Under the pieces are notes generated by a model. The model had not been told where the DNA came from. It saw nothing but the letters and a program-made list of their open reading frames with translations, and did not search any database. DNA of 64,000 bases from Propionibacteriaceae bacterium. GTDB taxonomy: Bacteria > Actinomycetota > Actinomycetes > Propionibacteriales > Propionibacteriaceae. Shown piece by piece: positions 1 through 18,229 of this stretch. The stretch is from the NCBI GenBank assembly GCA_025965155.1, contig JAOPXN010000084.1:1-64000 (forward strand). The letters are read 5' to 3'. Numbering within the stretch: the stretch's first letter is position 1; each line of letters opens with the position of its first letter. The translations under genes and the position numbers were made by a program.

Positions 1-554
1 GCCTCCCAGATCTTGGCCTGTTCCGCGGCGCCGTGCGGGTCGGCGGCGATGATCGCGGCGCCGAGCAGCGGCTCGAACCTCGCCCACGGCACCGTACTGA
101 TCGCGGTGGCGACGGCCCGGTCCACGACCCCGGCCGCCTCCGCCGGCAGCTGCCGGGTCGCCTGCGCGACCTTGCGGGCCTGCCAGCCGCGGACCTGCCC
201 GGCCAGCACCCGACCCCACAGCAGCGGCAGCCGGTGCCGCAGGTCGAGCGCGTCGGCCATCTGCCTGGTCGCGGCGGCGGTGCTGGTGTGTTGCAGGGCG
301 CCCAGCTCGGCGGCGGCGAACTCCCGCACCGCCGGCGTCCCCACTCCACCGATCCGGCGGCACTCCTCCACCCCCGCACCCACACCGGACAGCGAGCAGC
401 GCGGGTCGGACAGGTCAACACTGTGCAGGTCGGCCCAGTGCGCGGCCAACACCAACAACACGGTCTCCGCCTCCACCTGGGCGCGGTAGCTGTCGGCCAC
501 CAGCGCCGCGACGGCACCACCCGACAACCCCGCCAACCCCGCCAAATCGAACAT
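1..554 (-). CDS. DUF222 (13E12-type) HNH endonuclease family protein, 5' part only
   Basis: This open frame starts at ATG 554 on the minus strand and runs off the left edge without a stop, giving the first 184 residues. The translation begins MFDLAGLAGLSGG. It continues with the helical, Ala/Arg-rich DUF222 pattern, including LRHRLPLLWGRVLAGQVRGW at about 104-123 and a later VVDRAV...WARFEPL segment. In this family DUF222 precedes a C-terminal HNH nuclease motif, which would lie outside the window, so nuclease identity is inferred. The start is supported by TAGTGT at 561-566, six bases upstream of ATG. An SOS-box-like palindrome overlaps the start codon. Such genes are often multicopy; no second copy is in this window. 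Confidence 0.8.
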   Translation of the reverse strand, partial: MFDLAGLAGLSGGAVAALVADSYRAQVEAETVLLVLAAHWADLHSVDLSDPRCSLSGVGAGVEECRRIGGVGTPAVREFAAAELGALQHTSTAAATRQMADALDLRHRLPLLWGRVLAGQVRGWQARKVAQATRQLPAEAAGVVDRAVATAISTVPWARFEPLLGAAIIAADPHGAAEQAKIWE

Positions 555-562
555 ACGTTCAC
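547..562. promoter_or_regulatory. LexA/SOS-box-like palindrome over the DUF222 start codon
   Basis: The bases TCGAACATACGTTCAC match the Gram-positive and actinobacterial SOS box (CGAAC-N4-GTTCG type) at 13 of 14 core positions. The site covers the ATG (552-554) and abuts the -10 hexamer at 561-566, so a bound repressor would block transcription from a leaderless promoter. LexA binding is inferred from the motif alone. Confidence 0.55.
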
Positions 563-566
563 ACTA
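561..566 (-). promoter_or_regulatory. -10 hexamer, leaderless DUF222 gene
   Basis: TAGTGT on the minus strand lies six bases before ATG 554. It fixes the start codon and implies transcription begins at or next to it. Confidence 0.4.
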
Positions 567-699
567 ACGGGGCCGTCTGACAATTTGTGAGTTGCCGGTG
601 CCCGCCCACAGAGGACATTGCCGGTGGAATCGATGTGCCCCAAGTGAGCGCTCCGGTCAGAGTCCCCGAGCGAGCTACCCACGTAGCAGCATTACGGCT

Positions 700-1804: not shown

Positions 1805-4767
1805 CCGGTCTCTCCCCAGAACACCCGGTTCACCACGCCGCGGGCGCGTCGGGTCACCCGCCGATAGTCCGCCAGGAGATGAGAGGACTCCCCGGGGCCG
1901 TAACCCATCAGCTCGGCCAGCGCCGCCAGCTCGCGGTTGTCGCTCGGCAGTGAGTCAGAGCCGCGACCCCGCACCAACATGATCTGGTTCCGGATCTTGC
2001 TGGCGAGCATCCAGGCCGCCTCCAGCTGAGCGGCGTCGATCGGTCCCAGCACCCCGGCGTCGCGGGCAGCACGCAGAGCCTCGATGGTTCTGCTCGACCG
2101 CAGCTCGGGGATCCTCCAGGCATGTTGGAGCTGCAGCAGCTGAACGGTCCACTCCACATCGGCCAGGCCACCCGGCCCCAGCTTGGTGTGCTTGGCCGGA
2201 TTGGCGCCGCGCGGTAACCGCTCCGCCTCGACCCGGGCTTTGAGCTTGCGGATCTCGGTCAGCTGGGCAGCGGTCAGCCCACCTTCGGGCCAGCGGCGGG
2301 CGTCGATCTCCTCCAGCAGCTCCCGCCCCAGCTCCTCGTCGCCGGCCAGGGCGTCCGCCCGGACCAGAGCCTGCAGCTCCCAGGTTGAGGACCAGCGGCT
2401 GTAGTAGTTCCGGTACGCGGTCAGCGACCGGATCAGGGCGCCACCCTTGCCCTCCGGTCGCAGGTCTGCGTCAATGCTGAGGACCGGGTCGGCGCCTGGT
2501 CGAGTCAACAGCTTGCGCATCTCGGTGACGATGCCGCTGGCGATCCTGGTCCGGTCACCCTCCCCCTCGGCGTCGTCCATCACGAACATCGCATCGGCAT
2601 CGGAGGCGTACGACATCTCCCGGCCACCCCAGCGGCCCATGGCGATGACCGCGATCCGCGGCACCGACTCGGCCGGGGACGCATCCTGGGCCACCATCAG
2701 CGCCGCGTCGATGGTGGCCGAGGCAAGGTCCGCCAACGCCTCCCCGACGGCCAGCACATCGTTCAAGCCGAGCAGGTCGCCGGCGGCGGTACGGAACAGC
2801 TCCCGCCGGCGGATCGCCCGGATGGACTCGACCGCGGCGACGGGGTTGCTGTGCCTGCGCGCGGCCGTCCGCATCTCCACCCGCAGCGACTCCAGCGTCC
2901 GCGGCCTCAGCTGTTCATCGTCGCCCAGCATCTGCACGGTCTGCGGCGCCCGGGTCAACAGCTGAACCGCGTACCTGCTGGAGGCGAGGATGTGCGCGAG
3001 CCGCTCAGCCGTACGGCCCTCGTCTCGCAGCGCGCGCAGGTACCAGGGTGTGGTGCCGAGTGCCTCAGACACCTGCCGGAAAGCAAGCAGTCCATGATCA
3101 GGGTTGGGTGCATCCGCGAACCAGCCCAACATCGCCGGCAAGAGCTGCCGCTGGATCTCCGCCTGTCGGCTCATCCCCTGGCTCAGTGCCGCGATATGGC
3201 GCAGCGCCGCGGACGGGTCTGCGTACCCGAGCGCCTTCAGCCGGTCCACCGCCGAGTCGGTGGTCAGCCGTAGTTCCGAGCTCGGGATCCGCGCCACCGT
3301 GTCCAGCAGCGGCGAGTAGAACAGCCGTTCGTGCAACCGTCGAACGCGTTGTGTACAAGACTTCCAGGTACTCAGCACCTCTCTGACCGGGTCCCGGTAG
3401 CCGAGCGACCGGCCGATCCGACGAAGATCATCATCGCTGTCCGGCAGGACGTGGGTACGGCGGAGCTGGAACAGCTGAATCCGGTGCTCCAGCGTCCGCA
3501 GGAACCGGTACGCGAGTCCGAACCCCTTCCCGTCCTCGCGTCCGACGTAGCCGTTGTCGACCAGAGCCTTCAGTGCCTCAAGGGTGCCGCGGCGACGAAG
3601 TCGATCATCAACACGACCGTGCACCAGCTGAAGCAGCTGCACCGAGAACTCGACGTCGCGCAAACCGCCCTCGCCGAGCTTCAGCTCGCGTCCGGCGTCG
3701 CGGGCAGGGATATGCGCGACCACCCGTTTGCGCATGGCCTGGGTATCGGAGACGAAGTGCTCACGCTCGGCCGCCTGCCAGACCATGGGGCTCACCATGT
3801 CGACGAACTCCTGGCCCAGTGCAAGATCACCGGCACTGGGCCGCGCCTTCAACATCGCCTGGAACTCCCAGGTCTTAGCCCACTTGGTGTAGTAGATCTT
3901 GTGGCTGGCCAAGGTTCGGACCAGCTGGCCGGCCTTGCCCTCGGGCCGCAGGGCCGCATCCACCTCCCAGATCGTTCCGGCGGCGGTGTGCGCGGAACAG
4001 ACCCGGCTGAGCTCCGCCGCCATCCGACCGCCAACAGTGGCTACCTGCTCGTTGGTCAGCAGCGGGGTCCCGGCATCGTCGCTGGCCGACTCCGCCACAT
4101 AGAGAACGTCCACATCGCTGACGTAGTTGAGCTCCTGCGCCCCTGCCTTACCCAGTCCGACGATCGCCAGCCGGCACTGCAGAGCCAGCGGTCCGGTCTT
4201 TGCCCGGGCGATGGCCAGCGCGGCCTCCAGGGTGGCGTCTGCCAGGTCGGACAGCTCGGCGGCGATGCTGGGCATCGCCTCGATCGGTTCAGGGTCACAC
4301 AGGTCCCGGGCCGCGATCCGCAGCAGCGCACCACGATAGGCGATCCGCAGGCTGTCGCCGGACTGATCCGTGGCGACCGGCATGTCCGCAGCCGGGTCCG
4401 CGCCGACCGCCGTCAGCAACTGCGCCCGCAGCTCGTCGGCCGGTACCCGTACCGCTTCGCTGGCCAACACGTTCAGCTGCTCAGGGTGAGCCACCAGGTG
4501 CTGTTGCAGCGAGACGCTGGAACCAAGCACCATGATCAGCTGCCGCGCCATCGCCGGGTCGTTCATCACCCGCTCGACCAGCTCGGGGTCGCCGTCGGCC
4601 AGCCGGTCAAGGCCGGCCAGGGCAAGGTCTGGGTCGGCTGCGCTGGTCACCAGCTCCAGCAGCGGCTCGTACGACTGGTCCCACTGCTGCACCACACGCT
4701 CCGCCGCGGCCGAGTCGGCGAAACCTCGACGGGCCAGGTTGCCTTGGGTGGTCTGCAGTCGTCTCAC
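1801..4767 (-). CDS. glnE: bifunctional glutamine synthetase adenylyltransferase/deadenylase
   Basis: The 988-aa product adenylylates, and removes AMP from, glutamine synthetase type I according to nitrogen status. It contains two nucleotidyltransferase domains. The N-terminal adenylyl-removing domain has GLGKAG at 204-209 and the metal-binding SDVD at 217-220. The C-terminal adenylyl-transferring domain has MGRWGG at 710-715 followed by SDAD. Both carry the family's (D/A)LRPEGK(A/G)G motif. Length matches actinobacterial GlnE. The GTG start at 4767 is supported by TAGCAT at 4774-4779, six bases upstream, which implies a leaderless message. It sits two genes from glnA2, as in mycobacteria and streptomycetes. 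Its usual target, GlnA1, is not in the window. Confidence 0.96.
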
Positions 4768-16882: not shown

Positions 16883-18229
16883 TCAGGGCAGGAGGACGTC
16901 GGCCCGGATCATATTGTGATCGGACGGGATGACGCCTTTGAAATTCCCTTGGTCATCGACATCGACCACCGTCTCCCACTCCAGTGTTCTCATCCGCGAG
17001 GTCAAGATGTAATCCATGTAGGTGCCATTGCCGTAGTTGTTCCGTGCGGGCGGCTTGCGGGAGAAGCCGTTGTAGCTGTCAAGGTTCGAGCGGATCCTTC
17101 TCTCTGCCGTCGCACCGGCGCTCGGCAGGTCCTGCCGGTAGGTATTGCCGAGCGGGTCGAGGAAACCAGCCTGAGTCAGCACGTCATACGGCGCGTTCGT
17201 CGGCTTGGCCCATTTGTTGGAGTTCAGGTCGCCCGCGATCAGCACCGGCAGTCCGGCCGGGTTGTTGGACTGAATCGTCTCGACCACCTGCTGAGCCTGC
17301 TTCTGGCGAAGATCGAAGTACGCGGGATCCCCCAGGTGCTGGACCAGGTGGACATTGACGAAGAAGAAGCTCTTGTTCGTCGCCTGCTGGCGCAGAATGG
17401 CCCAGGCAAGGTATCGATCATCGGACTGCAGCCCGCTGGCGAGCTTGACCGCACCCTGGCTGAGCAGCGTGACCGTCGAGGTGTTGAACAGAATCCTGAC
17501 TCCCGCCGAGGCGCCGCGGTACTGCTCCTGACAGTTGGTCGCCGTGTTCGGGTCAATGCAGTTGTTCCGAGCGGTGTTGGTGAGCTCGTACGGTGCACCG
17601 GCAGCGACGAGGCCGTTGTGCAGGTCTTCGAACTGTGCCACCCCGGGCACCGAGGTGTCCTCTTTGAGGCGGGCCGCGGACGCCTCCTGGAGACCGATGA
17701 CATCAGGCATCCGGGACTTGATGGTCGAGACGACAGCGTCCCTCCGCCCGCTCCACGGCAGCTCGTTGGGATGACCGGCAAAGCAGTAGTCGCAGTAGAC
17801 GTTGTAGCTGGCCACCCGAAGCGGATGTTCCACCGGAGCGACCTTGGGGCGCGGTTCGGTCCTGACTTCCAGCGGCGCCGAGTACGGGCCGGCGGCGGTT
17901 CCGTCGCTTCTGACAACGCCCACCTTGACGTAGTAGGTGGTGTCCGGGCTTAACCCGGGAATCTCCGCAGTCGGCGCGGTGACCGTGTAGTAGGAGCCCG
18001 CTGTCAGCCCAGGATTCGTCGACTGCTCAACGCGGTAGGCGGGCGCCCCCGCAACCTGCTCCCAGCTCAGCGTCAGCGAGGTGACATCGCGATCCGCGGC
18101 TGTCACCGTTGCAGGCGCTTTGAAGGTCGGTTCCAGCTTGGTCAGGGGCGCGTCGGCCGAGATCAGAAAGAGGCAGGCGATCGCCACGGCCACGTACCTT
18201 TTCAGGCGCGATCTGCCGAGGAGGGGCAT
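16883..18229 (-). CDS. secreted FN3 - endonuclease/exonuclease/phosphatase family protein
   Basis: A 448-aa exported protein. An N-terminal hydrophobic signal/anchor (about 10-26) is followed by one fibronectin type III domain (about 36-125) and an EEP (DNase I/sphingomyelinase-like) domain (about 135-448). Catalytic landmarks are Asn143 in ASYNVY, Glu182 in GLQEAS, the Asp334/Asn336 pair in AGDLNSN, and Asp437/His438 in SDHNMIRADV. Extracellular nuclease or phosphodiesterase activity is likely; the substrate is not shown. The FN3 domain suggests polymer or surface binding. Its long spacers on both sides suggest a single-gene transcript. Confidence 0.88.
   Translation of the reverse strand: MPLLGRSRLKRYVAVAIACLFLISADAPLTKLEPTFKAPATVTAADRDVTSLTLSWEQVAGAPAYRVEQSTNPGLTAGSYYTVTAPTAEIPGLSPDTTYYVKVGVVRSDGTAAGPYSAPLEVRTEPRPKVAPVEHPLRVASYNVYCDYCFAGHPNELPWSGRRDAVVSTIKSRMPDVIGLQEASAARLKEDTSVPGVAQFEDLHNGLVAAGAPYELTNTARNNCIDPNTATNCQEQYRGASAGVRILFNTSTVTLLSQGAVKLASGLQSDDRYLAWAILRQQATNKSFFFVNVHLVQHLGDPAYFDLRQKQAQQVVETIQSNNPAGLPVLIAGDLNSNKWAKPTNAPYDVLTQAGFLDPLGNTYRQDLPSAGATAERRIRSNLDSYNGFSRKPPARNNYGNGTYMDYILTSRMRTLEWETVVDVDDQGNFKGVIPSDHNMIRADVLLP

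Follow-up and report, generated by a model that had tools for sequence, protein, structure and literature searches.

In Mycobacterium tuberculosis, 13E12 (DUF222/HNH) genes have been assigned to the LexA regulon, with MKWMTCGAAMRYWTGTTCGA as the extended LexA motif (PMC4181829, excerpt), a membership that the original prediction for the present locus had rightly invoked. The gene described here resembles them in family, by name, and in predicted LexA control; however, its LexA box adjoins a PafBC promoter and holds the start codon, a geometry absent from the available portion of PMC4181829. Joint control by the two damage pathways is exemplified by mycobacterial recA, with a PafBC promoter P1 and a LexA promoter P2, and several other mycobacterial genes also carry both a RecA-NDp motif and an SOS box (PMC5656591, PMC8223512, excerpts). 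While recA employs two separate promoters, a single core promoter bears both elements at the present locus. The lexA gene of M. tuberculosis likewise has a damage-regulated leaderless message with its start codon at the transcription start (PMC2897130, excerpt), but the nearby PafBC motif is reported not to act on lexA (PMC8151990, excerpt).

The REP13E12 repeats of M. tuberculosis are also multicopy and linked to HNH/DUF222 (PMC10589994, excerpt), and a recent preprint describes them as still lacking a defined function (PMC13061034, excerpt). Unlike the genes considered here, they are not tied to damage control in the available portions of PMC10589994 and PMC13061034; moreover, the copies in the present genome are bounded by the promoter, and for two relatives the shared stretch stops close to the stop codon. 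In the literature searched, whose coverage mostly excludes subscription journals, no paper contains both 'PafBC' and '13E12', and the portions of text available describe neither a single promoter of this kind whose operator includes the start codon nor any connection between PafBC and the DUF222 family. The composite promoter would be a variant of the known SOS/PafBC control.

Contact of a predicted PafBC promoter and a predicted LexA box

The window, i.e. the whole 64-kb stretch of DNA analysed, is contig C93 from base 1. The original prediction had placed a LexA-type palindrome on the start codon of a leaderless gene, abutting its -10. Direct reading of the plus strand confirms TCGAAC-ATAC-GTTC at 547-560, followed by AC. 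The gene lies on the minus strand and is cut by the contig end, which corrects its orientation and extent: it is open to base 3, with 184 aa left. Read from 583, the minus strand is T-TGTCAG-ACGGCCCCGT-TAGTGT-GAAC-GTAT-GTTC-GATTTG, and the features of the locus are the following.

577 to 582, minus strand: PafBC element TGTCAG, preceded by T at 583; exact match to the published motif
561 to 566, minus strand: -10 hexamer TAGTGT, 10 nt after the PafBC element and 6 nt before the ATG
549 to 560, minus strand: LexA box core GAAC-GTAT-GTTC, followed by GA at 548-547; adjoins the -10
552 to 554, minus strand: ATG start codon inside the LexA box, where predicted transcription and translation starts coincide; the reading frame is open from here
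3 to 554, minus strand: 5' part of the DUF222 gene (184 aa, MFDLAGLAGL...), stopping at the contig end

The LexA-type operator therefore does lie over the start codon, with the ATG (554-552) inside GAAC-GTAT-GTTCGA, and the -10 directly adjoins it with 0 nt between; the box covers both the predicted +1 and the start codon. As the ATG is in the box and six bases separate it from the -10, a leaderless message is expected, in agreement with the original prediction. The promoter itself fits TGTCRG-N10-TAnnnT in the coding direction and TGTCAG-10xN-TA-3xN-T, the printed form of the PafBC (RecA-NDp) motif (PMC8151990, excerpt).

Neither site is convincing on its own. The box has all 8 core bases of GAAC-N4-GTTC and 2 of the 4 flanking consensus bases, its two mismatches to TCGAACN4GTTCGA both being in the outer bases of one arm. 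At two mismatches this 16-mer palindrome occurs 7 times in the window against a shuffle mean of 2.27, and is hence weak evidence by itself. The exact core GAACN4GTTC is present twice in the 64 kb, at 549 and at 3319 within glnE, against a first-order Markov expectation of 0.82; the second core (3319-3331), which lies in the glnE coding region, is probably due to chance. The pattern TGTCAG-N10-TAnnnT occurs once in the window (561-582, minus strand) with an expectation of 0.175 for both strands, and its reversed form is also found once, at 18082. A PafBC site and a LexA site in contact, with 0 nt between them, did not arise in any of 200 simulated windows; the improbable thing is this contact and not either site alone. 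The LexA reading of the original prediction is very probably right, though it describes half of a composite PafBC/LexA promoter: the operator stands, but LexA control is incomplete as an account, since the promoter is predicted to be a PafBC-type (RecA-independent) damage promoter, which makes LexA one of two locks.

Gene product and its copies in the same genome

The window fragment matches Pfam PF02720 (DUF222) at 2.8e-5 with 24.0 bits, against a cut-off of 24.4, and scores 24.4 bits when its neighbours in frame are included. A relative of 70% identity, together with more distant ones, links the window protein to the DUF222 family; among the relatives, L346, from Nocardioides jiangsuensis, and L323 score above the cut-off for PF02720, L311 below it (18.7), and L359 gives no match. 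The DUF222 part of the original prediction is retained as probable, but the HNH part rests on relatives, there being no HNH motif inside the window, where the gene meets the contig end. Full-length relatives end in a D-x-D-H...N...H-H-R-x-K pattern, and D384, H385 and H414 (L346 numbering) are invariant in 15 relatives. PHROG HNH endonuclease profiles match residues 357-421 of L346 at 8e-5; two other relatives give no such match, and no Pfam HNH domain is found in 4 relatives. Nuclease activity of the DUF222/HNH relatives is likely, as judged from these patterns. Overexpression of the HNH nuclease MSMEG_1275 is inhibitory to M. smegmatis (PMC9416677, excerpt); this protein is not counted here as DUF222 evidence.

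The AlphaFold model of L346 (mean pLDDT 75.9, pTM 0.61) has no significant match in the PDB, with 192 matches at E<=10 and 0 at E<=0.001. Weak structural matches of this predicted model to ParB/KorB, and a sequence match to ZRANB3 over the HNH region (E 0.72), may serve as leads only. A defence-system role was set aside, as PADLOC gave no match for 3 relatives. Phage origin was likewise set aside, the exact window pattern (with GA and a 0-nt gap) giving 0 matches in viral contigs. Distant relatives of L346 are present in 4 plasmid records.

The PafBC+LexA composite occurs at 10 sites in the 4.49 Mb of the same genome, against 0 for the reversed pattern, and 8 of the 10 are starts of the subfamily of the window gene (type A). 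A motif-blind protein search of this genome returned 9 type A matches; the 8 that include a start all carry the composite, and the ninth match, on contig C10, covers an internal part of the gene. The further type A copies are 92-99% identical to the window gene over the part present; only 3 of the 8 copies are found by Pfam search, the rest being short fragments recognised by their identity of 92-98%. TGTCAG and both LexA arms are the same in 8/8 type A starts, and across these sites 0 of 17 motif-fixed positions vary as compared to 7 of 17 free positions (Fisher p 0.007). These eight copies are recent duplicates and not independent.

Candidate genes for the damage regulators expected for such a promoter are also present. 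The genome has one LexA gene, and the same LexA core is found upstream of recA-recX (C75), ruvC (C89) and lexA (C29). One pair of adjacent WYL genes lies at C117, as expected for pafB-pafC, to which NCBIfam gave no name. Upstream of lexA there are two tandem LexA boxes (L329, C29, oriented about 1136-1170), the second with one mismatch; this second box (GAACGTATGTTTGATTTG) differs by a single base from the type A start, and a 72-aa frame, MFDLYRIEPL..., opens from it ahead of lexA.

A second subfamily of the same genome, type B, comprises 8 starts found by their 5' coding sequence among the loci read. It carries TTCGAAC-N4-GTTCGAA between -35 and -10, exact in 7 of the 8 starts; the exception, L003, departs from it at one base (GAATCTGTGTTC). 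After the box comes a -10, which reads TATGAT in most copies, and 6 nt further on an ATG, replaced by TTG in one copy. MFEYD, read from a GTG/TTG/ATG within the LexA box in the same register as the window ATG, was tried as the type B start and rejected: a -10 and then a start codon follow the box, which therefore lies between -35 and -10, and M(D/G)SV is taken as the start. One further copy in this genome, L002, assigned to neither count, has neither motif.

All 16 start-bearing type A and type B copies meet a contig end about 0.6 kb or less from the start, on contigs C3, C10, C35, C37, C43, C48, C57, C61, C66, C89, C93, C107, C108, C112, C115 and C121, which indicates that draft assemblies truncate these repeats. 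The composite also stands at L360 (C7:80857-80901), ahead of DUF6504 and SAV_6107-like HEPN genes; in a related genus (L070-L099) it looks alike and is followed by similar proteins by eye, L070 alone being translated fully. At L362 (C26:14006-14040) a composite with the ATG in the LexA box is followed by a 124-aa gene.

DUF222 starts in relatives and across the phylum

Type A relatives in other genomes were read in two sets. The first, with one locus per genome, covers 19 of the 31 other genomes with a subfamily match, and by exact sites 8 of these relatives carry PafBC, 2 LexA, 0 both and 9 neither. The second (Nocardioidaceae, Propionibacteriaceae, Microlunatus, Raineyella and unplaced Propionibacteriales) covers 27 of 28 loci, L354 being left out with too little upstream DNA; here, 22 have PafBC, 6 LexA, 4 both and 3 neither. 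PafBC is thus commoner than LexA among type A relatives (8 versus 2 of 19 and 22 versus 6 of 27), and these counts place dual control in the copies of the window's genome and in scattered lineages rather than in the whole subfamily. The presence of the site at orthologous starts, on which the original prediction had staked itself, is mixed: L310, the nearest relative of the window gene (70% identity), keeps PafBC, but its box, GAAC-AT-GTTC, has a 2-base spacer. Several Nocardioidaceae relatives combine an MFD start and PafBC with the right LexA half-site only.

Across the phylum, 220 DUF222 starts from 89 genomes were scanned with exact motifs, over up to 600 bp around the N-terminal DUF222 match and with PafBC counted in the coding direction. 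A LexA core is present in 87 of them, so that the site does recur at other DUF222 starts as the original prediction implied; a PafBC promoter is present in 89, both in 21, either in 155 and neither in 65, and 66 have a LexA core without a PafBC site. At least one motif-bearing DUF222 gene occurs in 65 of the 89 genomes. Reversed LexA, reversed PafBC and antisense PafBC controls each gave 0 in the 220 regions, and the remaining 170 kb of the long loci hold 5 LexA cores (one being the true start of L190) and 1 PafBC site. With 155 of 220 starts carrying a LexA core, PafBC or both, the link of the family with the DNA damage response appears to reach far outside the mycobacteria, and there is a phylum-wide tendency of DUF222/HNH genes towards damage control, as read from their promoters.

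The 220 regions were hand-chosen from part of the eligible matches, taking best-scoring ones with a profile start of about <=31, plus 8 loci of the window's genome; L003 with its mismatched box is included. Left out were L001 (no 5' part), L002 (neither motif), L207 (which has a LexA core), and L036, L037 and L198 (neither motif in the part scanned). Several genomes give many paralogues, so the counts are of genes and not of independent events; DUF222/HNH genes are highly multiplied in many of the genomes searched, with up to 33 matches in one among those listed. Also among the matches listed, 7 of 7 genomes of one genus group (7.1-9.9 Mb, presumably Streptomyces-like) have no DUF222, and the PafBC motif is described as not conserved in Streptomyces venezuelae in an initial search (PMC9380542, excerpt).

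The position of the sites was analysed for 89 LexA sites and 90 PafBC sites, both sets excluding L190 (LexA core at the start, 113 bp upstream only) and L316 (PafBC). An ATG or GTG lies 6-7 nt after the -10 at 81 of the 90 PafBC sites and is in frame and open into DUF222 at 77, suggesting that leaderless geometry is general at DUF222 PafBC sites. The LexA sites are more varied: a -10 followed by a start codon within the box, as in the window, is seen at 20 sites in 15 genomes; a box followed by a -10 and a leaderless start at 24 sites in 16 genomes; 3 more have the start codon in the box with no TAnnnT at the right distance, and 42 fit neither defined geometry. In the 21 dual promoters the box lies over the start region at an offset of 22-25 from TGTC (31-32 in one genome), over the -10 (11-12) or just upstream of TGTC (-17, -18). 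One PafBC core with differently placed operators suggests that LexA control may have been added to it repeatedly and independently.

A scan for composite sites found them in 153 of 293 genomes, the reversed control occurring in 1 genome, and 30 loci of these genomes were looked at in addition to the window's own genome. When the exact architecture (PafBC -10, 0-4 nt, GAACNNATGTTC) was searched for without regard to genes, 11 of 396 phylum genomes contained it, with 0 for the reversed control. DUF222 genes account for 16 of its 20 places, in 8 of the 11 genomes: 8 are the copies already described, at 6 the frame begins with the ATG of the site (Pfam 1.3e-9 to 2.7e-94), and 2 immediately precede DUF222 matches, the ATG there beginning a frame of 7 codons ahead of the gene. 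These two (L398 and L399, identical with L195 and L194) may represent a leaderless mini-ORF coupled to the DUF222 gene. The other 4 places precede a polymerase III alpha/PHP (dnaE2-like) gene, an HNH_3 gene, one other gene and the 124-aa gene of the window's genome; at L397 and L396 the composite with the start codon in the LexA box stands before the dnaE2-like and the HNH_3 gene, respectively. The signature offers a simple means of finding putatively doubly controlled genes, such as the dnaE2-like polymerase gene.

Proposed control and the repeated unit

LexA is removed through RecA on single-stranded DNA. Single-stranded DNA also activates PafBC, which works through sigma adaptation, whereby sigma-A polymerase is reprogrammed to PafBC promoters (PMC11804915, excerpt). 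Positions 583-547 (minus strand) very probably form a DNA-damage promoter with two locks, serving a DUF222/HNH gene that is present in several copies, and the window gene appears, from its promoter, to be switched on only after DNA damage. When there is no damage, sigma-A RNA polymerase would use the promoter poorly, PafBC being inactive, and LexA on GAAC-GTAT-GTTC would cover the downstream edge of the -10, the transcription start and the start codon. Single-stranded DNA would then activate PafBC for sigma adaptation at TGTCAG-N10-TAGTGT and, via RecA filaments, trigger the self-cleavage of LexA; only then would a leaderless mRNA be made from the ATG. As PafBC activation and LexA removal act on one core promoter, the outcome would be an AND gate of two switches driven by single-stranded DNA with a presumably low leak, which would suit a potentially self-damaging nuclease. 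From the sequence we infer that LexA and PafBC bind, that the message starts without a leader, that the gene is induced, that the two switches act by AND logic and that the product is a nuclease; a single-promoter composite offers a natural test of how two pathways sensing single-stranded DNA combine.

Control by one of the two regulators would be a simpler explanation. If the gene were a PafBC gene alone, the palindrome would be a relic, or a by-product of the conserved N-terminus (Met-Phe-Asp), without a working operator; the Nocardioidaceae relatives having MFD, PafBC and only the right half-site, and the nearest relative having no 4-base spacer, agree with this. The left arm GAAC, however, is not part of the coding sequence, and it stays unchanged at 8/8 starts of this genome while free positions vary; in other lineages the box stands upstream of TGTC or over the -10, where there is no coding constraint. 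This reading is considered unlikely. A plain SOS gene, governed by LexA alone and with TGTCAG-N10-TAGTGT as an ordinary sigma-A promoter or a coincidence, would agree with the LexA regulon membership of the M. tuberculosis 13E12/DUF222 genes (PMC4181829, excerpt), with the 66 of 220 starts that have a LexA core but no PafBC site, and with the single reversed PafBC pattern in the window. Against it, the PafBC motif is present in 8/8 starts of this genome, is commoner than the LexA core among the subfamily relatives, and occurs at 89 of 220 DUF222 starts versus 0 reversed and 0 antisense, which renders it quite improbable.

It is also conceivable that the palindrome is real but bound by another factor, either an ArsR-type repressor or the DUF222 protein itself. 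The occupation of SOS boxes by ArsR regulators is speculated upon in PMC8151990 (excerpt), and the box accompanies each copy of the gene in this genome. The same core before recA, ruvC and lexA of this genome points instead to LexA, and such a factor is very improbable. A chance palindrome in GC-rich DNA might be proposed from the expectation of 0.82 cores per 64 kb and from the second core inside glnE, but it is contradicted by the contact with the -10, the 8/8 starts, the zero controls of the phylum survey and the 200 simulated windows, and is hardly credible.

The extent of the repeated unit was examined by comparing copies. In the 8 type A copies of the window's genome, mean pairwise identity drops at -31 from the ATG, three bases ahead of TGTCAG, its value going from about 0.95 to 0.3-0.4. 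Two single-contig relatives carry 7 copies at 84-88% and 6 copies at about 88-96% identity, respectively, and in both the column identity is lost some 10-20 bases ahead of TGTC. For most pairs in these two genomes, local alignments start 0-60 bases upstream of TGTC, and their other end is at the stop codon or no more than about 40 bases from it. Some pairs of a third genome have homology that reaches further upstream. These limits would fit either moving promoter-plus-gene cassettes or old copies kept alike by gene conversion while their flanks diverged. In M. tuberculosis, REP13E12 loci are described as gene-conversion hotspots, with 87 events (PMC13061034, preprint, excerpt).

A wider scheme, advanced as a tentative and rather unlikely possibility, is that DUF222/HNH genes are compact promoter-to-stop cassettes copied or spread between dispersed loci by damage-triggered recombination; the PafBC/LexA locks would confine a recombinogenic nuclease to moments of single-stranded DNA and RecA, and LexA operators would have been added independently in several lineages at differing positions on a fixed PafBC core. 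In the two single-contig relatives (L370-L382), the sequence shared by DUF222 copies runs in essence from the predicted damage promoter as far as the stop codon; the copy at L374 is frameshifted.
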